Source: a bacterium
GTDB taxonomy: Bacteria > Patescibacteriota > Gracilibacteria > JAHISY01
Reading direction: 5' to 3'
Assembly (NCBI GenBank): GCA_021779375.1
Contig: JAJYAT010000006.1
Span: forward strand, 1 to 33,514
DNA length: 33,514 bases
Under the pieces are notes generated by a model. It worked only from the letters and a program-made list of their open reading frames with translations. It did not search any database and was not told where the DNA came from. Positions 14,016-31,882 of this stretch are shown one piece after another. The position numbers and the translations under genes were made by a program. Position 1 is the first letter of the stretch; the number at the start of each line of letters is the position of its first letter.

Positions 14016-16193
14016 TTAATTAGCGGTGACGATTTTGCTCGTCTGGGAAACATTGCCGAATGGATCATAAATGCGCAAGATGACTTCGTATTTTCCGGCT
14101 TTCTCGAAAACGTGTGTGGGTTTGACGTCTGTGCCTGTCGTGCCATCGCCGAAATCCCACGCGATTTTATTGAAGTTGCCGCTCGAGGCGCTGGCGTCGA
14201 AAGAAATTGCGAGTGGCGCCGGACCATTCACGCGCGACAGCGTGAAATCTGCGGCGAGCGAAGCGTTCGAAGCGACCACTTTCAAAGTGTCGGAATACTT
14301 CTTGCCATCGTCGGTGTGGAGCGTGAGCGTGACAGGATATTCGCCGACGATGCCGAAGATGTGCGAAGTCTGGGCGCGGTCGTAAATGAAAGTCTCGCTT
14401 TTGCTATTCTCCGAGTCAAAGTTCCATTCATAAGAAATAATTTTCTTACCAGTCGGGACGCGCGAGCCGGACGCGTCAAAATTAATCGTCAGCGGCGCAG
14501 GACCAGAGAGTCGGTCGGCGCCGAAATTAACAATGGCTTTTTCCTCTGCGACATCGACCAGGACAGTCGCGCGCGACTCATTGTTGTCAGCGTCGGTGAC
14601 GCGCAGCGTTGTTTCGTATTTTTTCGAATTCAAAAACTCGTGCTCGACCGTGCTGCCCTCTTCGTCCCAGAGTCCGTCGCCATCGAAATCCCATTCGTAT
14701 TTCACGATGTTGTCGTCCGGGTCGGTCGATTTCGTCCCGTCAAATTCGACTGTGAGTGGAGCTGGTCCGCTGACTGTTTTACTCGTACCGGTCGCTGCCG
14801 GGGTCGTGGTGATGACAGCTTTCGGACTAAAGCTCTTGTCATTTACCGTGATTTCATTGGTCACTGTGCTGGTTTGTCCATTCGCGAAAGTCACGACCAG
14901 CGAGACGGGATAATTTCCGGCTTTTTCGAAAGTGTATTTCGCACGTTGTCCCCACAGAGTCGCGAGTCCGTCGCCAATCTGCCACTCGTATTTTTCAATC
15001 TTGGAATTTTGCAAAGTATTTTTCTCATAGTTCGCGAAAAGGCTAACGGCTAGTGGTGCGTAACCGCTCTGCGGAGTCGCCTCGATCCAGATACTGGCGT
15101 CGACTTGATCTACCGGTTCGCGCACGGTAATCGTCTTTTTGAATGTTTTGGTTTCGTGCGTGCCACTATCATTCAAATCTTCCGATGTGACAGTGAGACT
15201 GACGACATGTTCACCGATTTTGTCGAAAGTCCACTCGGCTGTGCCGTAGGTCGAACCTTCGCGATCCGGGCGACCGTCGCCATTCAGATCCCAGCTGAAG
15301 TTGGTAATTTTCGCACCGTCGGGATCTTTGATCGTGTTGGAACCGAGCTTGACTGTCAGAGGTACGATGCCCGACTCTTTATCAGCTGTGATTTCCCCGT
15401 AAATTTCTTGCTTGGCGATGGAAACCTCTTGCTGATATTCGCGCGTCTCGATGGGTCCGCCTGCTTTGGGCTGTAATTTGATTACCAGTTTGACTTCATA
15501 AACTCCATTATTTTTGCCGCGATCCTGGAAATAAATTTTATTTTTGATTCCAGTCGCATCGACTCCCCCATCACTTTCCTTGTCCCATTCGTAGCTCACG
15601 ATGTCGTAAGTTTTTGCAAACTTGGAAGTGATTCTTTCGGCGGAAAATTCAATCTGAATCGGTGAAGTTAGATTGAGCGTATCAGCCGGATTCGTCACGA
15701 TTTCGACTGGCAGATCCGGCTCTTTGATTTCGAATTGACTGAAATAACCGTAGACCAGTGACCAGAGCACTACGACGACGATGAAAATCCCCAGGCTCAA
15801 GAGTGAGCGTTTGGTGGCGCGTGATTTGCCCACTTTGTCATCCGGTCCTGCGAGAAATCTGCGTGAGACCCCGAAAATTAAGACGATCAAACTGATCAGC
15901 GCAATCGCGCCAAACAGGAAATTCACCATACCAATCGACCAGTTTTTGAGGCTGGATGGATTGAGTCCGAGACTCGTAATCGTATTTTCGTCGGCACTCA
16001 GACCGAAGGCCATCGCGAGTAGCAGAATCAAGAAAACCGATAAAAAGATAAAGAGACAACCTAGCGTCATCTTTTGGGCGTTCATCGGTTTATTGGCTGG
16101 AGCTTTCGGCGCAGCTTCTCCGCTCGAGCCGAAATTATCCTCACGGTGCAGCGGGGCGATTTCATCGAAGTCGGCAAGATTTTGGTTTTCCAT
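14016..16193 (-). CDS. Membrane protein with tandem PKD/Ig-like domains
   Basis: This 725-aa protein has a short acidic cytoplasmic N-terminus, three membrane helices (about 42-64, 88-108 and 131-151) and a long extracellular part. The exterior holds about six PKD/Ig-like domains: a degenerate one (about 160-265), then about 268-365, 370-455, 460-560, 560-650 and 650-725. Typical PKD cores are GPAPLTVEFDGTKS, YEWDFDGDG and WDFGDGTTG, each with an H-x-F or Y-x-F strand and an aromatic-P-V-x-L. Such domains mediate surface protein contacts. It is the fifth gene after the 44-aa peptide in the pilus cluster and starts 9 bases after the 183-aa pilin, so a structural or adhesive role in the same apparatus is likely. 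Confidence 0.9.
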   Translation of the reverse strand: MENQNLADFDEIAPLHREDNFGSSGEAAPKAPANKPMNAQKMTLGCLFIFLSVFLILLLAMAFGLSADENTITSLGLNPSSLKNWSIGMVNFLFGAIALISLIVLIFGVSRRFLAGPDDKVGKSRATKRSLLSLGIFIVVVVLWSLVYGYFSQFEIKEPDLPVEIVTNPADTLNLTSPIQIEFSAERITSKFAKTYDIVSYEWDKESDGGVDATGIKNKIYFQDRGKNNGVYEVKLVIKLQPKAGGPIETREYQQEVSIAKQEIYGEITADKESGIVPLTVKLGSNTIKDPDGAKITNFSWDLNGDGRPDREGSTYGTAEWTFDKIGEHVVSLTVTSEDLNDSGTHETKTFKKTITVREPVDQVDASIWIEATPQSGYAPLAVSLFANYEKNTLQNSKIEKYEWQIGDGLATLWGQRAKYTFEKAGNYPVSLVVTFANGQTSTVTNEITVNDKSFSPKAVITTTPAATGTSKTVSGPAPLTVEFDGTKSTDPDDNIVKYEWDFDGDGLWDEEGSTVEHEFLNSKKYETTLRVTDADNNESRATVLVDVAEEKAIVNFGADRLSGPAPLTINFDASGSRVPTGKKIISYEWNFDSENSKSETFIYDRAQTSHIFGIVGEYPVTLTLHTDDGKKYSDTLKVVASNASLAADFTLSRVNGPAPLAISFDASASSGNFNKIAWDFGDGTTGTDVKPTHVFEKAGKYEVILRIYDPFGNVSQTSKIVTAN

Positions 16194-16202
16194 TTTTGAA
16201 GA

Positions 16203-16754
16203 TTAAGAGTCTTTACCTGTTGGTCCTGTGGTAATGAGAGTATTGACCAGGGCGTAAGCTATCATGATTACGATAATTCCGACGACTACCCAGACAATAA
16301 TGTTTTTGGCTTTTTTAGCTTGTTCATCATTGCCCATCGAGGTGACATAAAGAAAGCCAGCATAAATCACGAAGATCATCGCGATAAGTGCGAGGAAGCT
16401 GAGGAAAAAATTGGTCCACTTGAGGATGGCTCCGCGGAAAGTGGTTGTGCCATTTATGCCAGTAATGACGATACCGGCGTAGGCATCCGGATCAGGAGCG
16501 ACGAGACAATCACTGCCGCCGCAGCCAGGCTGTTTCGCGACTCCGCCGCCTGTGCTGAAATTAAATCCGCCGGTCGAGATGTCGATGCCGACTCCGCCCA
16601 GGACGCCGTCGAGCATTCCACCGAGATTCAAATCAAATTTGGCCATGAGGTTTTGACCTGCCATCCTGCCAAAGATTGCCGTGCCGACGATGAATATGCC
16701 GAGCACGATGCCGATGATGAATTTTCGATCGAGAAGTATTTTTTTGAATTTCAT
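16203..16754 (-). CDS. T4SS pilin-like protein, single module
   Basis: This 183-aa protein has an N-terminal hydrophobic segment (about 11-30), a glycine-rich linker with two cysteines (CGGSDC) and a C-terminal pilin-like module (about 110-175). The module is helix, short charged loop (GNDEQAKKAKN), helix ending in AYALVNTL. This two-helix pattern is that of VirB2/TrbC-like pilins and of the T4SS_pilin family common in CPR genomes. It shares most of the loop and second helix with the 621-aa neighbour. It lies between that gene (8 bases away) and the PKD gene, in one operon. Confidence 0.85.
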   Translation of the reverse strand: MKFKKILLDRKFIIGIVLGIFIVGTAIFGRMAGQNLMAKFDLNLGGMLDGVLGGVGIDISTGGFNFSTGGGVAKQPGCGGSDCLVAPDPDAYAGIVITGINGTTTFRGAILKWTNFFLSFLALIAMIFVIYAGFLYVTSMGNDEQAKKAKNIIVWVVVGIIVIMIAYALVNTLITTGPTGKDS

Positions 16755-16762
16755 TTTAATTT

Positions 16763-18628
16763 TTAATTGCTGTAGCCGACATCGATTCCGCCGATGCTGA
16801 CATCGACATTTGTACCACCGCCCCCGCCGCTACCGCCGTCATTGCTGAGGAGCAGTGTGCTGACGATAGCGTAGGCCGAGAAAATAACGATGATACCAAT
16901 CACAACCCAGATAATAATATTTTTGGCTTTTTTGGTTTGATCTTCGTTGCCAGCGGCAGTGAGATAGAGGAAGCCAGCGTAGACGAGTGCGGCAATCGCG
17001 ATCACGCCGACGAAAGGCAAAGTGAAATTCGTCCAGCCGGTGATCGAGCCGATGGCGCTGTCATAAGTATTGCCCTTGTAATTCGAGGCAAACGCAGTCA
17101 GTCCTTTGGCTGAGCCGACGCCGTCGAAGACTGTGCCGGAAGAACTGGCTGAACTCGCAGCGTCGGTCGAGATTCCGAGCGCACCGGCAATCGCTTTGAC
17201 TCCGGCGCCAAGCGCACCAGTCGCTCCGCCGATGAATCCGCCCACAACCTCGAGTGGTGCGGAAATGACTGACCCGAGGACACCGCCCGTGAATTTAGCT
17301 CCGCTCACAGCTCCATTTTTCGCGGTGGTGGCTCCGCTCGAGATAGTGTCCCAAAGTCCAGCTTTCAAATAGCGGGCTTCGATGTCATTCATGACTGCGC
17401 TGAGTTTCGGACTGAAGTCTGCTTGTTCGTCTGCGGCTTTCAGTTCTTCGATTTGTTTTTGCAATGGTTCGATTTGCGCTTGCGCCTGGATAGTTCGTTT
17501 GGAGGTTTCATCCTGCAGATTCAAAATGAACTTTTGATAAGTCTCTTTTTGGAGCACCCAGGTGATGACTTGGCTCTGGCATTTATTGGCGTCTTTATTC
17601 GCTTTCATGCAGTTTTCCAGCGCAGCCGTCTCAGTCTGGAAATCTGCGCGCTGGCTGGTTTCTTCCGCCTCGATTGCTTTCAGTTCTTCCTGCGAAAAAA
17701 CATTGTCAGCGATATTTTGGATTTGAGCTTGGAGTGCGGCAATCTGTTCGGCGTTTGATGCTGCCGTATTTTTGCGACTGATGAGTGCGCGGATTGCGGC
17801 GACGCCTTTCGTGACGACGTCTTGTTGGTTTTGCGGCAAGCCTGGAATTTTCGCCTCAATTTTCTGCAGATTGGACTCGATTTCATCCAGGCTGACTTTT
17901 CCCTCGGTGACGTCACTGATCGCTTTTGCGAGATCGCGAATGACTGTGGTGTCATCGCCCAGACCGACAATTTTGCGGATATTCGCGATACTGGTCGTGA
18001 CGATTTCGCGATCAGAGAGCGAGAGATAAGGAGTGCGTTCCTCCATCTTATTGAGCTGCTCGAGGATGACCATCGCTTCCGGTTCGGTTTTCAGGTTTGT
18101 GCGAATGGTGGCGACATATCCCATGATATCTTTCGCGAATCTGCCGTCATCATCGACGACAGCCTCTTCGATTTTTTGCAGCTCAGTTTCGATTGCACCG
18201 AGCTGATTTACGAGGAGTGACGGTTCGATTTCTTTTTGAATTGTTTCGACTTCGACTGCGATTGAAGCTTTCGGAAACAGCGATTGATTTTCGCGTTCGC
18301 GTAGGATGATTTCTCCACTCAGACGTTGTAAATCATTCCGTAAATTCTTGAGCGCTGTGAGTCGGGAGTCGAGATTTTCAGGGCAATTTGCGCTTTCCAA
18401 GTACTGATCGTAGGCACCGCCATCTTCTTTGCCGATTGCTTTGAAATAAGTCTCGCGTGCGGATTTGACCTTATCGACTTCGACTTGAATTTTCGAAAGT
18501 GTACTGATCGTAGCTGGCGAATTGGCAGCAAGCGCGTGGTTATTGCCAAAAATTAAAGCCGCCAGGATGGTGCATCCGATGACAGATAGTAGTTTTTTAT
18601 TAGTACGAAATTTATTTTTGGATGGCAT
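16763..18628 (-). CDS. Secreted coiled-coil protein with C-terminal T4SS pilin module
   Basis: This 621-aa protein starts with a signal peptide (MPSKNKFRTNKK, hydrophobic LLSVIGCTILAALIF, then ALA-ANSP). Residues about 40-395 are helical with long heptad-like stretches and four cysteines. A glycine/alanine-rich zipper-like stretch (about 420-500) follows, then one pilin-like module (about 530-595) with the loop GNEDQTKKAKN and the ending SAYAIVSTLL. The tail is glycine-rich and includes NVDVSI. The ATG at 18628 lies 4 bases after the stop of the 419-aa gene; an upstream ATG at 18667 would overlap that gene and spoil the signal peptide. It may be an adhesive or spacer-bearing minor pilin. I know no such fusion by name. 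Confidence 0.82.
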   Translation of the reverse strand: MPSKNKFRTNKKLLSVIGCTILAALIFGNNHALAANSPATISTLSKIQVEVDKVKSARETYFKAIGKEDGGAYDQYLESANCPENLDSRLTALKNLRNDLQRLSGEIILRERENQSLFPKASIAVEVETIQKEIEPSLLVNQLGAIETELQKIEEAVVDDDGRFAKDIMGYVATIRTNLKTEPEAMVILEQLNKMEERTPYLSLSDREIVTTSIANIRKIVGLGDDTTVIRDLAKAISDVTEGKVSLDEIESNLQKIEAKIPGLPQNQQDVVTKGVAAIRALISRKNTAASNAEQIAALQAQIQNIADNVFSQEELKAIEAEETSQRADFQTETAALENCMKANKDANKCQSQVITWVLQKETYQKFILNLQDETSKRTIQAQAQIEPLQKQIEELKAADEQADFSPKLSAVMNDIEARYLKAGLWDTISSGATTAKNGAVSGAKFTGGVLGSVISAPLEVVGGFIGGATGALGAGVKAIAGALGISTDAASSASSSGTVFDGVGSAKGLTAFASNYKGNTYDSAIGSITGWTNFTLPFVGVIAIAALVYAGFLYLTAAGNEDQTKKAKNIIIWVVIGIIVIFSAYAIVSTLLLSNDGGSGGGGGTNVDVSIGGIDVGYSN

Positions 18629-18632
18629 GTTT

Positions 18633-19892
18633 TTAGAAAGTATTGCGAATTGAGCTCCAAATCCCAAAGATTATTTCAGCTTGCGCCCGCTTCACCGCGG
18701 AAGCTGCGGCGGCGGCTGCGTCAGCGATGGCTTTTTCGGCGGCCGCTTTTTCGGCGGCAGCGTGCATCGCGGCGGCATCCAGTTCGGCTTGCAGGCTCGC
18801 TTGCAGCTGGGCCTTGCGAGCATTCAAGTCCTTGAGGGCAAGTTCGTAAAGTAATTTTTGGGTCGTGGAGGTGGCGATTTTCGTCACCAAAACATTCTTT
18901 TTATTGTGTATTTCTTGATTACACCAACCGAGTCCTTCATTTTCTTTTATATTTTTTGCATCAGTGTGACCAATCTCCAGCGCGACGATGTCGTTCTCGA
19001 GCACTTTGAGTGTGTCGTGGATATCGATTTGCAGTTTGCCGAGCTCGACGATGGCGGCGATGATTTTCTCCTGCGAATCCTTCTCGTTTTGCAGATATTT
19101 CTGGCAGACACTTTCGTCGTTCGCTTTGACGCAATTGGTGTGGTCTTCTTTGTTCTTCGCGACGCGATCACGATTTTTGAAAATGTCTTGCATGAGTTTT
19201 TTCACATAAATCACAGCCGACTCATGCGTGCCTTTTGCCGTGACGAGTGAATATTGATTTTCGACACTCGCGCGCATACCGAAAAGTAGCGTGACCTTTT
19301 GAAATTCTTTTTGGCACATACGAGCACTATTCAGCTCGGCTTCGGCTGCTTGGCAGTTAGATTCATTTGTACAAAAAAATACTTTATCCTCTTTTTTGCT
19401 GAAGTCCGCTGTGAATTCTTCCAGCGAGCGTTCGTAAGTTGTTTTGAGCGTCGTGAGGTCTTTTTCGAGCTGCCAAATTTGATTCTCATTGGCATAGACT
19501 TGATCCTGTGCTGCGCAAGTCCCCTCTCCGCAAAAATTCAGATTTTCAATCAGCTCAGGAAATTCACGCGAGAGATCGGACATCTGCGCGGTTAGCTTGT
19601 CGAAATTCGCGTTGATTTCCGTCGCAGCGCAAATTGGATTTGCCACATCTGCAGTGCTGTCGAGAATATCGTCACGTAATTTTGCTCCAGTCACAAAAAC
19701 TCCGCTCGCGAGTAGTCCGAATACGAGTAAACCCGCGGTCGTGCGTGTGAGTTTGCGGCGAAATTGCCGAAACGTGCGGGCGTTGCGCGGGTTTTTGTTG
19801 GCAATCCGGCGGACAGTGAATCGTACCGCCGGACGCGAACGTCGAAGTTTGTTGTTTGTTTTCGGGGGCATTTTGGCTAAAGAATTAACCAT
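18633..19892 (-). CDS. Coiled-coil membrane protein with RRIANKNPR N-terminal motif
   Basis: This 419-aa protein has a basic N-terminus with the motif F25-T-V-R-R-I-A-N-K-N-P-R36, one membrane helix (about 50-70) and a long helical, heptad-rich exterior (about 80-380) with about eight cysteines. It ends in an alanine-rich helix (about 370-405). It has no pilin module. The motif recurs in the 44-aa and 552-aa proteins of this cluster. A GGAGGT lies 2 bases before the ATG at 19892, too close for a good SD; the internal ATG seven codons later is an alternative start. It is probably a periplasmic or outer structural rod of the apparatus. Confidence 0.75.
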   Translation of the reverse strand: MVNSLAKMPPKTNNKLRRSRPAVRFTVRRIANKNPRNARTFRQFRRKLTRTTAGLLVFGLLASGVFVTGAKLRDDILDSTADVANPICAATEINANFDKLTAQMSDLSREFPELIENLNFCGEGTCAAQDQVYANENQIWQLEKDLTTLKTTYERSLEEFTADFSKKEDKVFFCTNESNCQAAEAELNSARMCQKEFQKVTLLFGMRASVENQYSLVTAKGTHESAVIYVKKLMQDIFKNRDRVAKNKEDHTNCVKANDESVCQKYLQNEKDSQEKIIAAIVELGKLQIDIHDTLKVLENDIVALEIGHTDAKNIKENEGLGWCNQEIHNKKNVLVTKIATSTTQKLLYELALKDLNARKAQLQASLQAELDAAAMHAAAEKAAAEKAIADAAAAAASAVKRAQAEIIFGIWSSIRNTF

Positions 19893-19900
19893 GCACCTCC

Positions 19901-19917
19901 CGTTTTAAATTAAAACG
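19901..19917. terminator. A/T-rich hairpin between the 44-aa and 419-aa genes
   Basis: CGTTTTA-AAT-TAAAACG, a 7-bp perfect stem covering the stop codon of the 44-aa gene. On the minus strand it could attenuate transcription into the 419-aa gene or stabilise the small upstream transcript. Confidence 0.4.
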
Positions 19918-20044
19918 AGAAGATGCGAGCAAGCACGCTGCCTGCGCGGTGCGCACGGAACTGGCGCGGATTGGCGTTGCGGATTGCACGAACCGAGAAG
20001 TGAGCGCGTTTTGTGACGGTGCGAACAGTTTTTGTTTTGAGCAT
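19910..20044 (-). CDS. 44-aa basic peptide sharing the pilus-cluster N-terminal motif
   Basis: It starts at ATG 20044 and ends at TAA 19910-19912. The sequence begins MLKTKTVRTVTKRAHFSVR and carries F16-S-V-R-A-I-R-N-A-N-P-R27, the same pattern as F-T-V-R-R-I-A-N-K-N-P-R in the 419-aa protein and F-T-I-R-R-I-A-N-R-N-P-R in the 552-aa protein. It ends in VLARIFSF where the others enter a membrane helix. About 30% of residues are Arg or Lys. It has its own extended -10 promoter and a structured leader. The motif match in the same cluster is the main reason to accept so short a frame. It may be an adaptor, decoy or regulator of motif-dependent targeting. Confidence 0.6.
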   Translation of the reverse strand: MLKTKTVRTVTKRAHFSVRAIRNANPRQFRAHRAGSVLARIFSF

Positions 20045-20065
20045 GTTATGGGGGTTAATTTTTTT

Positions 20066-20113
20066 GATTTAAATTTTTTGTTCCCCGCTTGCGTGAGGAC
20101 AAGTTTTTAAATC
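20066..20113 (-). promoter_or_regulatory. Structured 5' leader of the 44-aa gene
   Basis: GATTTAAA and TTTAAATC (20106-20113 and 20066-20073) form an 8-bp perfect stem at the predicted 5' end of the transcript. It encloses a bulged inner stem TTGT-CCTC / GGGG-AACAA. About 21 bases separate the structure from the ATG. The whole 124-bp gap between the 552-aa and 44-aa genes is taken up by this leader and its promoter. Confidence 0.45.
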
Positions 20114-20118
20114 TGGTC

Positions 20119-20147
20119 ATTCTAGCATTTCTACTCTTTCTAATCAA
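20119..20147 (-). promoter_or_regulatory. Internal promoter of the pilus cluster
   Basis: On the minus strand TTGATT (20147-20142), a 17-base spacer ending in TGC, and TAGAAT (20124-20119). This matches the architecture of the promoters at 23251-23223 and 29316-29344. It should drive the 44-aa, 419-aa, 621-aa, 183-aa and PKD genes. Confidence 0.65.
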
Positions 20148-20168
20148 ACAAAGTTGCTTGACTGAATA

Positions 20169-21827
20169 TCAAATTGATACTCCGACACTTGTTCCGGATC
20201 CGCCTTCGGAATCCACATTTGTGATTGTGTGTACGATTGCGTAAGCCGAGACAGACAGCACTACACCGATTACGGCACTTACTATAATTTTCTTAGCCTT
20301 GCCGGCGAGGTCGTCATTACCAAAATTCGCGATCCACATAATTCCGGCGACGACGATGGAAATTACCGAGAAGATACCGACAAAACTGGCGATGAAATTG
20401 GTCACGCCCGAGAGCATATTCACGCCATTCAAAGCCGCGACGCTACTTTGTCCGGTCTTCGGATCGACGATGAAGAAAAATTGCGTGACGACCATATTCG
20501 AGAGCATGACGATGACGAGACCGGCGATACTCCAAAGCAAAGTTGTCTTGTGTTTTTTAATAATCTCCTCATTGCCCATCGAGGCGATGATAGCCGTACC
20601 CGAGTAGACCATGAAGAAGACCGCGACCGCGCCCACGAAGGTTTCGAAAAAGCGCACGATGCCGATAATCTGATTCGTCCCGACTAGTCCGAGTCGTGCC
20701 GCCGTACGGCAGGCACTGATTCGCGCTGTCAGCTCGACAGTCGTGATGCCGTAATTTCTCGCGAGTCCAGTCGAGCCGCCCATGGTGGAGACCGTCTCTG
20801 CCACGTTTTCGATTTTTGCCAGACCGCTCATGATGCCACTAAACGACGAGAAGCTGTCCTTCAGACTGCCGAGCGAAGAAATACTGTCGACCACGCCGCC
20901 GAGCGACGAGTTGTTATTGAGAGTGTCTTTTTTCACATAATTCATGAATTCTACGCAAATCGGGTCTGCGGCGCCGGAGGTACTATCCGGATAAATGAAA
21001 GTAAAGATCATCGTGTCGAGCAGCAAAACAGTGACGAAGGCTGTCAGGATATGCATTAGGTATTTTTTCTCCTTTTCGATTTTTTCTTCGCTGCCGCCGG
21101 CTGTCACCATCTGCACGCCCGCGAAAACAATAAACAAAATCGCCGCCGAACCGATGAGTGTTTTGAGGTAGCTGAAAATAATGCGCGCGTTCGCTCTGAA
21201 ATACAGGGCGATATTGTCGAAGATTGCTGGTGTCGCGGTGGCATTGCCGGCTGCGTCCACCGTGACCAAGCTCTGGTGGGGATCATAGCCGCCGCCCTCG
21301 AAGAAGGTGACAATGACTGAGTCGATTGCAAAAATCAAAACAAGCGCGACGATGCTCCAGATTAAATTTTGTTTACCTTTTTTGATGCTCTCCTCGCTTT
21401 GCGCTAGGACGATTTGGGTTGCGGAGATAACCATGAACAGTACGGCTCCACTACCCGCGATGTATTTGAAATAATCTTTGACGTTGTAAAGAACGGCATT
21501 GATTGTCGCACCCATCCCGGTATCTGCGAATTCACCGCCTTGATTCGTCAGGCTTGGGTTACTCGCGTCACCGCTAAATCCAGTAATGTCCTCGAATCCG
21601 GGACCGAGCACTGAGGCATCGGCTGCGAGTAGCTGTGAATTGAAATTTGTGCTGACGAAATTGCTTTCGAAAAAAAATAAACTCGCAACGCCGGCGACAG
21701 CCAGAAAAACCACGACCGCCAAGCGCCAAATTTTTTGGCACGAAGCGCGGTAAAGGCGCGGCAAACGCGGATTGCGATTCGCGATGCGGCGAATCGTAAA
21801 GAGCGACTGCTTTTTTTTGGTGGTCAT
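20169..21827 (-). CDS. Four-module T4SS pilin-like polyprotein
   Basis: This 552-aa membrane protein has the motif F10-T-I-R-R-I-A-N-R-N-P-R21, a signal-anchor helix (about 33-53) and the segment QLLAADAS, which may be a cleavage site. Four repeats of the pilin pattern follow: helix, short charged loop, helix. The loops are QSEESIKKGK (about 140-150), GGSEEKIEKEKK (about 243-254), GNEEIIKKHK (about 415-425) and GNDDLAGKAKK (about 503-513). The last module ends in SAYAIVHT, as in single-module pilins. A cysteine-containing 100-residue insert separates modules 2 and 3. The C-terminus is SVGVSI. It starts 2 bases after the stop of the 456-aa gene. VirB6-like channel function is an alternative. 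Confidence 0.82.
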   Translation of the reverse strand: MTTKKKQSLFTIRRIANRNPRLPRLYRASCQKIWRLAVVVFLAVAGVASLFFFESNFVSTNFNSQLLAADASVLGPGFEDITGFSGDASNPSLTNQGGEFADTGMGATINAVLYNVKDYFKYIAGSGAVLFMVISATQIVLAQSEESIKKGKQNLIWSIVALVLIFAIDSVIVTFFEGGGYDPHQSLVTVDAAGNATATPAIFDNIALYFRANARIIFSYLKTLIGSAAILFIVFAGVQMVTAGGSEEKIEKEKKYLMHILTAFVTVLLLDTMIFTFIYPDSTSGAADPICVEFMNYVKKDTLNNNSSLGGVVDSISSLGSLKDSFSSFSGIMSGLAKIENVAETVSTMGGSTGLARNYGITTVELTARISACRTAARLGLVGTNQIIGIVRFFETFVGAVAVFFMVYSGTAIIASMGNEEIIKKHKTTLLWSIAGLVIVMLSNMVVTQFFFIVDPKTGQSSVAALNGVNMLSGVTNFIASFVGIFSVISIVVAGIMWIANFGNDDLAGKAKKIIVSAVIGVVLSVSAYAIVHTITNVDSEGGSGTSVGVSI

Positions 21828-21829
21828 TT

Positions 21830-23200
21830 TTAAATTGAAACTGAAATACTAGTTGATTGTTCGCCGCTAGTGAGAACAGTGTTGACGAGCGCGTAGGCTG
21901 AGATAGTGACGACGAGACCGAGACAGGCAGCCAGCAAAATCTTTTTGCCTTTTTCGGCCTGCTCCGGATTCGTGAAGGCTGTCGAGATGTAGAGCGCGCC
22001 GACGATGAGCGCGAGCACAGCGAGCGCAGAGCTGAAAGTCAAAATGAAATTGGTGAATCCGCCGAGCTGCTGCGAAAAACTGCCGATGGCAGTCATGGAA
22101 TTAAAAATAATTTTGCCGCCACGATCTGGCATGAAGATATTCACGAAAGTCTCAGCGATCAAAACCGTCGAGAGACCCATGAAAATCCAAGTAATCATTT
22201 TGCGCTGGCGCGTGATGATTTCTTCGTTGCCGCCAGCGGCGACCATTTTGAATCCAGACAGGAAAAGCATGAGCACGGCAGTTGCCCCGATGAAGGTTTG
22301 GAAATACTTCACATAATTCAAGACCACGATGCGTGCCTGCGATTGTCCGGATTGCAAAATCGCCTGCAATTGATTGACTGCCAGTGTTCCACCGCTGATC
22401 TGCGTTTCGACGGTATCAGTCGGCGCAAAAACTTTGTCGACCAAAACTGCGCTGGCACCGACGATGAACAGCGCGATGGCTCCCCACGCAATTGTCTTGC
22501 GCGCATTTTTGACAGTCTCTTCGCTGCCGACACCACCTACCATTTGAAAAACAGCTACGCCCATCGTGATGAGCGCGACTCCGCCGAGAATATACTCGAT
22601 GAGGTGTGCGGCGGAACGTAGAGTGAAGCCGACGATTTTGGCGGACAAGAACACGGTATCGGGATTGGTGAGCAGGTCGATTTTGTCGCTGCGCAAAAGT
22701 ATAAATGCGTCTGAAAGCGGCTTGGCGATTGCCAAAATCATGAAGCCGACAAAAGCCCACAGCATACGCTCACTGAATTTTTTCGAGGCATCCTGTTTGT
22801 CGCCGGCAGTCAAAAAATTAATGACGTATAAGCTGAGAAAGATTCCGAAGACGCCAGCCATGACGTAATCCATAATACTTAAAATCCTTTTAATTAGGCT
22901 GTCTTTAAAAAGGTTGTTGATCAGCGCCTGGTTGCTTGTCCACGCATTAGTGTTCAGAGTAAGCATGCTGCTCGGTGCGTCCGTGGGATCAAGCATGAGT
23001 GAGGCATTGGCCGCGAGTAGTTCCCCGCTGACTGTTTTGTCATTCAGTAAAAAAGCTTTCAGTTGCGCACTGCCTTCACTGAGATTCGCGAAAACAAAAC
23101 CGCCAATGACAAAGACCAGTGTGAGCGCGAAAAGTGTTTCTTGGAAATGGTGCAGATTTCGCGAGAAGAATCGGTGAATTTTGCTTTTTATTTTGCCCAA
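21830..23200 (-). CDS. Four-module T4SS pilin-like polyprotein, first gene of the operon
   Basis: This 456-aa protein has a basic N-terminus without the RRIAN motif, a signal-anchor helix (about 20-40) and LLAANAS (about 64-70). Four pilin-like modules follow, with loops DKQDASKKF, GSEETVKNARK, GNEEIITRQRK and TNPEQAEKGKK between paired helices. The last ends SAYALVNTVL and the C-terminus is SISVSI, parallel to the 552-aa neighbour. The start is TTG at 23200; no in-frame ATG lies before the first helix, and a strong promoter ends 23 bases upstream. It may encode a fixed multi-subunit pilus segment or an inner-membrane base. Confidence 0.82.
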   Translation of the reverse strand: MGKIKSKIHRFFSRNLHHFQETLFALTLVFVIGGFVFANLSEGSAQLKAFLLNDKTVSGELLAANASLMLDPTDAPSSMLTLNTNAWTSNQALINNLFKDSLIKRILSIMDYVMAGVFGIFLSLYVINFLTAGDKQDASKKFSERMLWAFVGFMILAIAKPLSDAFILLRSDKIDLLTNPDTVFLSAKIVGFTLRSAAHLIEYILGGVALITMGVAVFQMVGGVGSEETVKNARKTIAWGAIALFIVGASAVLVDKVFAPTDTVETQISGGTLAVNQLQAILQSGQSQARIVVLNYVKYFQTFIGATAVLMLFLSGFKMVAAGGNEEIITRQRKMITWIFMGLSTVLIAETFVNIFMPDRGGKIIFNSMTAIGSFSQQLGGFTNFILTFSSALAVLALIVGALYISTAFTNPEQAEKGKKILLAACLGLVVTISAYALVNTVLTSGEQSTSISVSI

Positions 23201-23222: not shown

Positions 23223-23251
23223 ATTATAGCAAAAAACTACCATTTTTTCAA
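23223..23251 (-). promoter_or_regulatory. Main promoter of the pilin operon
   Basis: On the minus strand TTGAAA (23251-23246), a 17-base spacer ending in TGC, and TATAAT (23228-23223). The ATPase gene at 29363 has the same TTGAAA-17-TATAAT with TGC. The predicted start near 23216 leaves a 16-base leader without an SD. Confidence 0.8.
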
Positions 23252-29362: not shown

Positions 29363-31882
29363 ATGACTGCTTCCACATTTTTTAATTTCGTGATTTTTTA
29401 CGGCGGACTCGCCGCTGCGGCATTCATCGCGCTTTGGTTTATTTCGCTTATTCTGACGCGCTGGATGAATTTTCGCCGCTCGCTGGAGCTGGTTTTTCTG
29501 CGAGTCTTGATTCCCAAAAAAGATTCGAAAGACGATCAGGGTCATGATTCCGAGCACGAGCAATTTGGCAGTAGCAAGGAATTCCGCAAAATTACCGGAA
29601 TCATGGTGCATTTTCTCGAAAACATGCAGACACTTTTTTCGCGGAAATTGCGCAATCGCTTCATCGGTCAAAACTTTTTTTCGCTCGAATACGCGATGCT
29701 TGACGGCGAGCTCAATTTTTTCGTCGTCGTGCCGCACTCGGTGCGCGAGTTGATTGAAAAGCAAATCACTGGTTTTTACAAAGATGCGGTGATTGACCAA
29801 GTCCCCGATTACAATATTTTCAAGCAGGGCAACAAAAGTGCCGGAACCTATTTGATTCTCAATAAGTCTTACGCCGAGCCGCTGCTCACTTTCCAGAAGC
29901 TCGAAAGCGAGACGATCAATCCAATCATTAATGCCTTTTCGAAAATTACACTTGAAGAAGGTGCGGCCTTCCAGCTCATGCTGCGCCCGGTGCGGGCGGG
30001 CTGGCGTCAAAAATGTCGCAAGCTGGCAGATGAGCTTTTCACGCGTAAAAAACGAGGCTTCAATATTCCATTCATCGGCGGGCTCTTTAATTTCATCGCT
30101 GTCATCGTGCGCGGTCCGGATCATCTCATGGGCGGCAAAGACGATGGGATCAAAGCGCAGGTGACACAAAACGTCCAAGACATGGTCAAACTCATCGCCG
30201 ACAAATCCGAGCATGTCGGTTTCGATGCAATCATTCGCATCGTCGCGAGTGCACCGAGTCTGCCGCGCGTGAAGTCGATTCTGCGCTCGATTCGCGCCAG
30301 CTGTGAGCAATTCAACGCGCCGTCCCACAATTCGCTTTATTACACCGAGTACCACTCGAATCGAAAAATCATCGAATCATTTATCTTCCGCAATTTCAAA
30401 CGTGGCGCAATCGCGTGGTGGAAGATTCTCAAGCGCGGTGAAACGGCGATGATTCTCGGTGCGGAAGAAATCGCGTCGATTTATCATTTTCCAGACATTC
30501 GCTACAATCCCAGCACAATCGTGAAGTGGCAGGATTTCAAAGTCGAGCCGGCACCGCAAAACATTCCGAAAGAAGGACTGCTGCTCGGTCATAACACTTA
30601 CCGTGCCACGAAAAAAGATATTCGCATCCAGCGTGACGATCGCCGCCGCCATTTCTATGTGATTGGAAAATCCGGTACGGGTAAATCGACTTTGCTTGAG
30701 ACGATGATTCGGCAGGATTTGCAAAATGGCGAAGGCGTTTGTGTCGTCGATCCGCACGGCGATCTCGTCGAAGCGGTGCTGCCCTACATTCCCCGCTCGC
30801 GTGCGGACGATGTGATTTATTTCAATCCGGGCGATCTCGAGCGACCGATGGGTCTCAATATTCTCGAAGGCAAAACGCCGGACGAGCGCGAATTCATGTC
30901 GCAGGAAGCACTCTCGATTTTTATCAAAATGTTCGGTGAGGAAGTCATGGGTCCGCGTCTGCAGCACTATTTCCGCAACGGCTGTCTCACGCTGATGGAG
31001 GACGAAGAAGAGGGCGCGACGCTGATTGACCTCACGCGGCTTTTCACCGACGACGCGTGGCAAAGATACAAAGTCAGCAAAGTGAAGAACCCAATCGTGC
31101 GTTCATTTTGGACGAAGGAAATGGCGGCTTCGGGCGCGCGCGAAAAGCAAGAAATCATTCCGTACTTCAATTCCAAATTCGGTCCTTTCATCACCAATGG
31201 CTTGATTCGCAATGTCATCGGACAGACGCGTTCGGCGTTCAATATTCGCGAGGCGATGGATCAGGGAAAAATCATTCTCTGTAATCTCTCGAAAGGTAAG
31301 ACGGGCGAGCTGAATTCCCAGCTGCTCGGTTCCATCCTAGTCGCCAAAATCCAGCAAGCGGCGATGTCGCGCGTCGATACGCCGGAGAAGGAGCGCCGCG
31401 ATTTTTATCTCTATGTCGATGAGTTCCAAAATTTCGTCACGGATTCATTCGCCTCGATTCTCTCCGAAGCGCGTAAATACCGCCTGAATTTGATCGTCGC
31501 GCATCAGTACATTTCGCAAATCACCAAGTCGCAGGGTGGCGGCAAAGGCAAACATGAGGACACTGAGATTCGCGATGCTGTCTTCGGTAACGTCGGCTCG
31601 ATGCTCTGCTTCAAAATCGGCGCGGCGGATGCCGAGACGATGGCGAAAGAATTCGCACCGGTTTTTAGCCAGCAGGACTTGATCAATATCGCGAATTACA
31701 AAGCCTGCATCAAGCTCAACATCAATAACGCGACGAGCCGTGGCTTTACGCTCGAGACGATTTACGATCCGACTGGTCGTGATGACGAAGCAGCGGAGGC
31801 AATTCGCCAACTTTCCAGATTGAAATTCGGACGCGACCGCGAATTTGTCGAGACGGAGATCTTCAAGCGGATTACGACTTAG
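29363..31882 (+). CDS. VirB4/TraG-like type IV secretion ATPase
   Basis: This 839-aa protein has an N-terminal membrane helix (about 5-33), a long mixed domain (about 60-400) and a RecA-like motor. Walker A is GKSGTGKS (435-442), followed by VVDPHGDLV. Walker B is Y-L-Y-V-D686-E-F-Q-N-F, and the late segment LIVAHQYISQI is typical of conjugative-transfer ATPases. NCBI annotates such CPR proteins as T4SS conjugative DNA transfer family. It probably energises the pilus or secretion system encoded at 14016-23200, given the matching promoters; physical linkage is 6 kb away. It stands alone between ftsL and a ComEC-like gene, and the association with DNA uptake is inference. Confidence 0.88.
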   Translation: MTASTFFNFVIFYGGLAAAAFIALWFISLILTRWMNFRRSLELVFLRVLIPKKDSKDDQGHDSEHEQFGSSKEFRKITGIMVHFLENMQTLFSRKLRNRFIGQNFFSLEYAMLDGELNFFVVVPHSVRELIEKQITGFYKDAVIDQVPDYNIFKQGNKSAGTYLILNKSYAEPLLTFQKLESETINPIINAFSKITLEEGAAFQLMLRPVRAGWRQKCRKLADELFTRKKRGFNIPFIGGLFNFIAVIVRGPDHLMGGKDDGIKAQVTQNVQDMVKLIADKSEHVGFDAIIRIVASAPSLPRVKSILRSIRASCEQFNAPSHNSLYYTEYHSNRKIIESFIFRNFKRGAIAWWKILKRGETAMILGAEEIASIYHFPDIRYNPSTIVKWQDFKVEPAPQNIPKEGLLLGHNTYRATKKDIRIQRDDRRRHFYVIGKSGTGKSTLLETMIRQDLQNGEGVCVVDPHGDLVEAVLPYIPRSRADDVIYFNPGDLERPMGLNILEGKTPDEREFMSQEALSIFIKMFGEEVMGPRLQHYFRNGCLTLMEDEEEGATLIDLTRLFTDDAWQRYKVSKVKNPIVRSFWTKEMAASGAREKQEIIPYFNSKFGPFITNGLIRNVIGQTRSAFNIREAMDQGKIILCNLSKGKTGELNSQLLGSILVAKIQQAAMSRVDTPEKERRDFYLYVDEFQNFVTDSFASILSEARKYRLNLIVAHQYISQITKSQGGGKGKHEDTEIRDAVFGNVGSMLCFKIGAADAETMAKEFAPVFSQQDLINIANYKACIKLNINNATSRGFTLETIYDPTGRDDEAAEAIRQLSRLKFGRDREFVETEIFKRITT

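Follow-up and report, generated by a model that had tools for sequence, protein, structure and literature searches.

Tandem type IV secretion pilin modules in a matched pair of genes of Gracilibacteria

A gene string with ten pilin modules

The 33,514-nucleotide stretch of DNA analyzed here (the window; positions 1 to 33,514 of contig JAJYAT010000006.1, from the Gracilibacteria assembly GCA_021779375.1) carries on its minus strand, at 14016-23200, a compact string of genes in which modules of the type IV secretion system (T4SS) pilin family occur both singly and fused in tandem. In order, the string encodes proteins of 456 amino acids (aa; gene A), 552 aa (gene B), 44, 419, 621, 183 and 725 aa. 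Four of them exceed the curated cut-off (26.6 bits) of the Pfam family T4SS_pilin (PF18895): the 552-aa protein with 88.2 bits (E = 4e-25) and the 456-aa protein with 74.7 bits (E = 6e-21), each over four stretches, the 621-aa protein with 38.8 bits for one C-terminal module, and the 183-aa protein with 39.3 bits for its one module. An earlier interpretation of the same DNA, made from its letters without database searches (the sequence-only reading), had counted ten units in four genes (4 + 4 + 1 + 1) and taken them for T4SS pilin modules fused in tandem; Pfam and a whole-genome scan show the count to be exact, and the PF18895 matches in all four proteins bear out the assignment. All ten modules lie on the minus strand in that scan, which also found nine further pilin modules on four other contigs of the genome. 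Every tested homologue of the 552-aa protein (27/27) and of the 456-aa protein (24/24) matches PF18895 at E <= 0.01, and these E-values, together with the conservation in homologues, exclude a chance origin of the matches.

Gene A (21830..23200) encodes an N-terminal signal-anchor-like helix and four modules, placed by the genome scan at 22709-22897, 22436-22624, 22133-22315 and 21875-22075. Gene B (20169..21827) starts 2 bases past the end of gene A, and its product has an N-terminal FTIRRIANRNPR motif and a hydrophobic segment, with modules at 21312-21512, 21009-21179, 20484-20660 and 20226-20417. Each module is a helical hairpin with the conserved loop G-[NSDE]-[ED]-E...K-K. Identity among modules within a protein is low (11-35%), which indicates old, diverged, position-specific units; the tandem modules perceived earlier in both long proteins are thus real, but they are not near-identical repeats. 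When a profile of single-module pilins was aligned with the last module of the fused proteins (hhalign E = 2.4e-26), the match pointed clearly to homology between the two.

The remaining genes follow on the same strand. The 419-aa protein (18633..19892), predicted to be helical, has an N-terminal RRIANKNPR motif but neither a pilin module nor a confident Pfam match. The 621-aa protein (16763..18628) has a signal-peptide-like start, a long helical region and a pilin module near its C-terminus (16853-17035), which is 52% identical to the module (16236-16448) of the single-module pilin-like 183-aa protein (16203..16754). The last gene of the operon (14016..16193) encodes the 725-aa protein, which has hydrophobic segments at its N-terminus and five or more PKD domains; the sequence-only reading had delimited the system to 16203-23200, which holds all ten modules but leaves out this gene, and with it the end of the operon. 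Neighbouring genes overlap or lie at most 10 bases apart, except for about 280 bases between gene B and the 419-aa gene, a gap that contains the 44-aa reading frame (19910..20044) with an N-terminal IRNANPR motif as in gene B. The N-terminus of gene B matches this frame at 19937-20020 with an E-value of 0.08. A promoter-like site (TTGAAA-17-TATAAT; 23223..23251, minus strand), with 11/12 consensus positions and TG before the second hexamer, lies 22 bases upstream of gene A and is, by consensus match only, the best of 7 in the region.

We also observed that a motif of the form [IV]R-x-I-x-N-x-NPR stands before the first hydrophobic segment of both the 552-aa (21827-21750) and the 419-aa (19823-19719) proteins and makes up much of the free 44-aa frame (20020-19937, minus strand), with a weaker match on another contig, C12. 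It might be a sorting signal. On C12 itself, a single-module pilin gene adjoins genes for 989- and 911-aa proteins without Pfam families (L012, 3665-10364; G000:C12), possibly another pilin-linked surface system.

Matched module numbers and position-specific modules in the class

A protein search of 60 relatives from the class gave matches in 56, the four without all belonging to family f10, and a module-derived profile was then used to read the locus in 56 class genomes. An adjacent, co-oriented gene pair with equal module numbers was found in 50 of the 56: 45 have 3+3 modules (three of them with a gene touching the edge of the locus), and five, which form the window's own family with two genera, have 4+4. 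The same fusions that the sequence-only reading had suggested seeking in related genomes are therefore present, but its description of modules joined four at a time holds as the local form of the window's family, the class-wide rule being three-module pairs. In two further genomes a gene with three modules accompanies one with two, one module being below threshold or missing. The pair was not shown in four: two members of family f13, in which the corresponding modules sit in separate one- and two-module genes, one fragmentary locus and one contig end. Some members of the class (L094 of genome G015, as well as L114, L117 and L119) read TGA as an amino acid, and standard-code annotation splits their fused pilins. 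An apparent natural fission in G015 (1+2, 1+2) was rejected on these grounds, as the breaks are TGA codons that are read through and the chains are continuous.

Across a phylum-wide sample, 279 of 287 genomes have matches. Outside the class, most matches among those listed cover one module only. Arrays of genes with one module each are the rule there, and fusions of two or four modules are sporadic: L063, L068, L069, L072, L073 and L074 each have one two-module gene amid arrays of single genes, and in L091 a four-module gene accompanies single genes.

Within the class, the modules can be told apart by gene and position. Hidden Markov models built with one family left out at a time assigned 223 of 270 modules to the correct gene and position, and nearest neighbours in other families shared gene and position in 61% of cases, compared with 14% (21% at most) when labels were shuffled within genomes. 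Mean identity to free single pilins is 33-34% for the C-terminal modules of A and B, compared with 16-25% at other positions, so that across genomes the non-C-terminal modules are progressively different from single pilins. In the window's own family, modules 1 and 4 of A, as well as modules 3 and 4 of B, retain the identity seen across the class, and each gene has gone from three to four by adding a module of the middle type. The module counts are suggestive of a rule of equal numbers for A and B.

Kinship beyond PF18895 was assessed with further profiles and databases. The TrbC/VirB2 family (PF04956) is matched at E <= 0.01 by 10 of the 27 gene B homologues and 11 of the 24 gene A homologues (best E = 5.5e-9), with no match for the window's own 456- and 552-aa proteins and matches below the cut-off for its 621-aa (E = 9e-5) and 183-aa (E = 0.006) proteins. 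The VirB2/TrbC resemblance proposed earlier for the single-module forms thus appears in 21 of 51 fused homologues, but the single-module proteins of the window stay under the PF04956 cut-off. Single-hairpin modules match the Mbov_0395-type model NF045849 up to about its cut-off of 40 bits. A plasmid search gave no match, nor did a search of PHROGs.

Evidence for a proposed concatenated membrane complex and its alternatives

Most full-length orthologues start with ordinary signal peptides (e.g. ...AFAQ). Lysine and arginine make up 15.5% of the hairpin loops, compared with 6.7% of the linkers between modules, which carry a net charge of -1.7 and have a median length of 21 aa between profile matches. 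Signal peptides, lysine-rich loops and acidic linkers together predict a topology with the loops inside and all linkers outside. AxA-type signal-peptidase motifs in these linkers were as frequent as in shuffled sequences (50% observed, 51% shuffled), and in the N-terminal regions they stood at 98%, compared with 73% after shuffling.

Based on the fixed equal module numbers, the position-specific modules, the predicted outside linkers and the lack of cutting signals, we tentatively favor, at not quite an even chance, the explanation that A and B are uncut concatemers that determine how a membrane complex is ordered and how large it is, and that the outer part of this complex consists of the single-module and PKD proteins. 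Each chain of T4SS-pilin-type helical hairpins would be inserted through its N-terminal signal peptide or signal anchor and remain uncut, and every hairpin would make two passes through the membrane, the Gly-Asn-Glu-Glu...Lys-Lys loop lying inside and the linkers outside. A and B would then pair module for module into a hetero-oligomer in which the covalent chain sets order and size, and their complex would provide a surface apparatus with its membrane base or initiating layer. Docked on this complex, the single-module pilins, the module-PKD proteins and the PKD proteins would carry an exposed, probably adhesive stalk. In four tested genomes of other families, a protein of about 1490-1670 aa combines several PKD domains with a pilin module close to the N-terminus, and most other families with a long enough locus have module and PKD domains in one protein of 1500-1670 aa; these fusion proteins tie pilin modules to exposed stalks. 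The PKD domains give weak matches to the NCBIfam model CPR_pilus_PamR, for whose label a literature search found no paper. Among the three mechanisms offered by the sequence-only reading, a fixed subunit order gains from the position-specific sequences, which count, along with the absence of a motif excess in the linkers, against cutting into single pilins; the third, a multi-helix membrane base, is possible and close to the concatemer explanation that we prefer.

Several observations weigh against this explanation. The separate genes of family f13 indicate that fusion is not indispensable, and the lockstep in module number rests on one evolutionary transition, from three to four. The genome's VirB4-like gene (C4:27936-29399; 127 bits, under the model's cut-off) and PrgI match (C4:109402; 43 bits) are on another contig than the pilin operon, which leaves a dependence on a T4SS conjectural. 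AlphaFold predicts four helical hairpins per chain, with a predicted local distance difference test (pLDDT) score for the modules mostly of 60-85 in B and lower in A, but the overall confidence is low (predicted template modelling scores of 0.41 and 0.49 for the two chains), leaving packing and A-B pairing without structural support; the modelling proposed earlier thus yields the hairpins of both proteins but no readable packing. Searches by sequence for solved relatives returned none for the tandem or the single-module profile, and a fold search with the 552-aa model gave no hit (best E = 0.3), a result that is uninformative given the low-confidence model. In the light of both, the name pilin rests on profile matches.

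The nearest T4SS-type ATPase gene found encodes a coupling-protein-like ATPase (TrwB_AAD_bind, 38.8 bits) at 29363..31882 on the plus strand, outside the operon. It is one of two different coupling-protein-like ATPases (the other at G000:C6:42194-44830) that lie within about 13 kb of each other, and they share their contig with the pilin operon.

An alternative that we consider unlikely is a covalently linked pilus, in which a long filament is built by repetition of the A-B pair and each chain supplies three or four successive protomers, with the linkers on the outer surface. Every module does match the T4SS pilin profile, many chains match TrbC/VirB2, and the linkers are predicted to lie outside, as known pilus structures would suggest for a VirB2-type pilus. 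However, the N-terminal and middle modules are those far from free pilins, and the canonical single-module pilins of the operon could build any filament alone.

About as unlikely is a VirB6-like role, in which A and B form the polytopic inner-membrane channel of a T4SS and were recruited from pilins since VirB6 is missing. Together, A and B have six to eight transmembrane hairpins, and one survey reports VirB6 to be absent in Gracilibacteria (PMC12102498). In our data, TrbL/VirB6 (PF04610) has no match in the window proteins, the 51 homologues of A and B or the whole genome, and is absent from 52 of the 60 class genomes. The placement of the 552- and 456-aa proteins in VirB6/TrbL, which the sequence-only reading had named as the result that would overturn it, did not appear, and we rejected a VirB6/TrbL identity of A and B for want of any Pfam match in those homologues or the genome. 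The eight class genomes with a TrbL match include all six sampled members of family f9, which also have the 3+3 pair, showing that A and B are not simply a stand-in for VirB6, although they may have a related role where VirB6 is missing; in addition, the pair is unlinked to VirB4 in the window's genome. At three f9 loci (L137 7460-11087, L138 8539-12381 and L141 7654-11993), a TrbL gene directly precedes a pilin gene with two modules and two further genes with one module each. This TrbL-linked two-module gene is a second, separate fused-pilin locus.

A T4SS-independent function, with A and B as a generic scaffold of membrane hairpins, pilin only in descent, to which PKD surface proteins are anchored, is distinctly unlikely in our judgment. 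PKD domains abound in the operon and its relatives, the T4SS core genes lie elsewhere in the genome and no structural match was found, but the genome does contain VirB4-, PrgI- and coupling-protein-like genes, and related fused pilins adjoin VirB6 in f9 and sit in arrays of single pilins in other lineages.

In gene B, the linker between modules 2 and 3 (20957-20709, minus strand) is the one long variable linker and differs widely in length within the family. The residues at its two ends, Cys291 and Cys373, are conserved among family members, and a disulphide between them is possible. It is improbable that A and B are polyproteins, from which cuts in the outside linkers would release single pilins for separate assembly: although these linkers are predicted to be within reach of signal peptidase and f13 suggests that separate modules can work, the linkers are often short and have no excess of cleavage motifs, the two cysteines could hold the halves of B together, and elsewhere the phylum just relies on separate genes. 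All these explanations partly overlap, and their probabilities do not have to add up to one.

Comparison with known systems

Arrays of 2-11 separate pilin genes have been described in Patescibacteria (PMC12102498), an array of this kind is essential in a cultured Saccharibacterium (PMC10633639), and such arrays are discussed in a 2025 review (PMC12857230). In their accessible text, the first two surveys counted pilin genes, and modules within a gene are unreported there. The open-access literature that we searched (subscription papers and preprints lay outside the search) contains no description of modules fused within a gene. The earlier statement that no described system is built this way is thus upheld for within-gene fusion, but the separate pilin-gene arrays of the phylum are on record (PMC12102498). 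The fused, position-locked gene pair is a variant new to the literature searched. The single-module arrays share with it the PF18895 module, the multiple diverged copies per locus and the phylum, but have one module per protein, whereas here the modules are fused into two proteins in a matched, fixed number and are position-specific. The departure is from the arrays as described, PF18895 itself setting no such limit on modules per protein.

Such arrays are indispensable to the only cultured relative that has been studied. If order and number are covalently fixed, the product would have a definite size and arrangement and could be purified or modelled as one A-B unit. The fused modules also correct surveys that count pilin genes and not modules. 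We think it possible, though on the doubtful side, that the class as a whole has a pilin-derived hetero-oligomeric machine, of a T4SS-derived type not described so far, in which two chains with equal numbers of modules would fix hairpin order and stoichiometry and PKD stalks would contact a host cell.

Similar to TrbC/VirB2 (PF04956), the modules have a signal peptide, two helices and a charged inside loop in the predicted topology, and about 40% of the fused proteins match this family, weakly to clearly. VirB2, however, has one hairpin per chain and forms a pilus; a pilus built by the system described here would be hypothetical. A and B resemble VirB6/TrbL (PF04610) in being polytopic T4SS-type membrane proteins, but they consist of repeated pilin hairpins, none of their 51 homologues matches the profile and they coexist with TrbL in one family. 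The Mbov_0395-type pilin-like conjugal transfer protein (NF045849) of mycoplasma integrative and conjugative elements, which single-hairpin modules match here, is a single-module protein of a mobile element. In V-type and some archaeal ATPases, the hairpins of the c-subunit are duplicated or multiplied in one chain, which fixes the size of the membrane ring; the concatenation of A and B is like this in principle only, with no homology. If the concatemer explanation is true, pilin modules are able to give rise, in the way that proteolipid c-subunits did, to a concatenated membrane complex.

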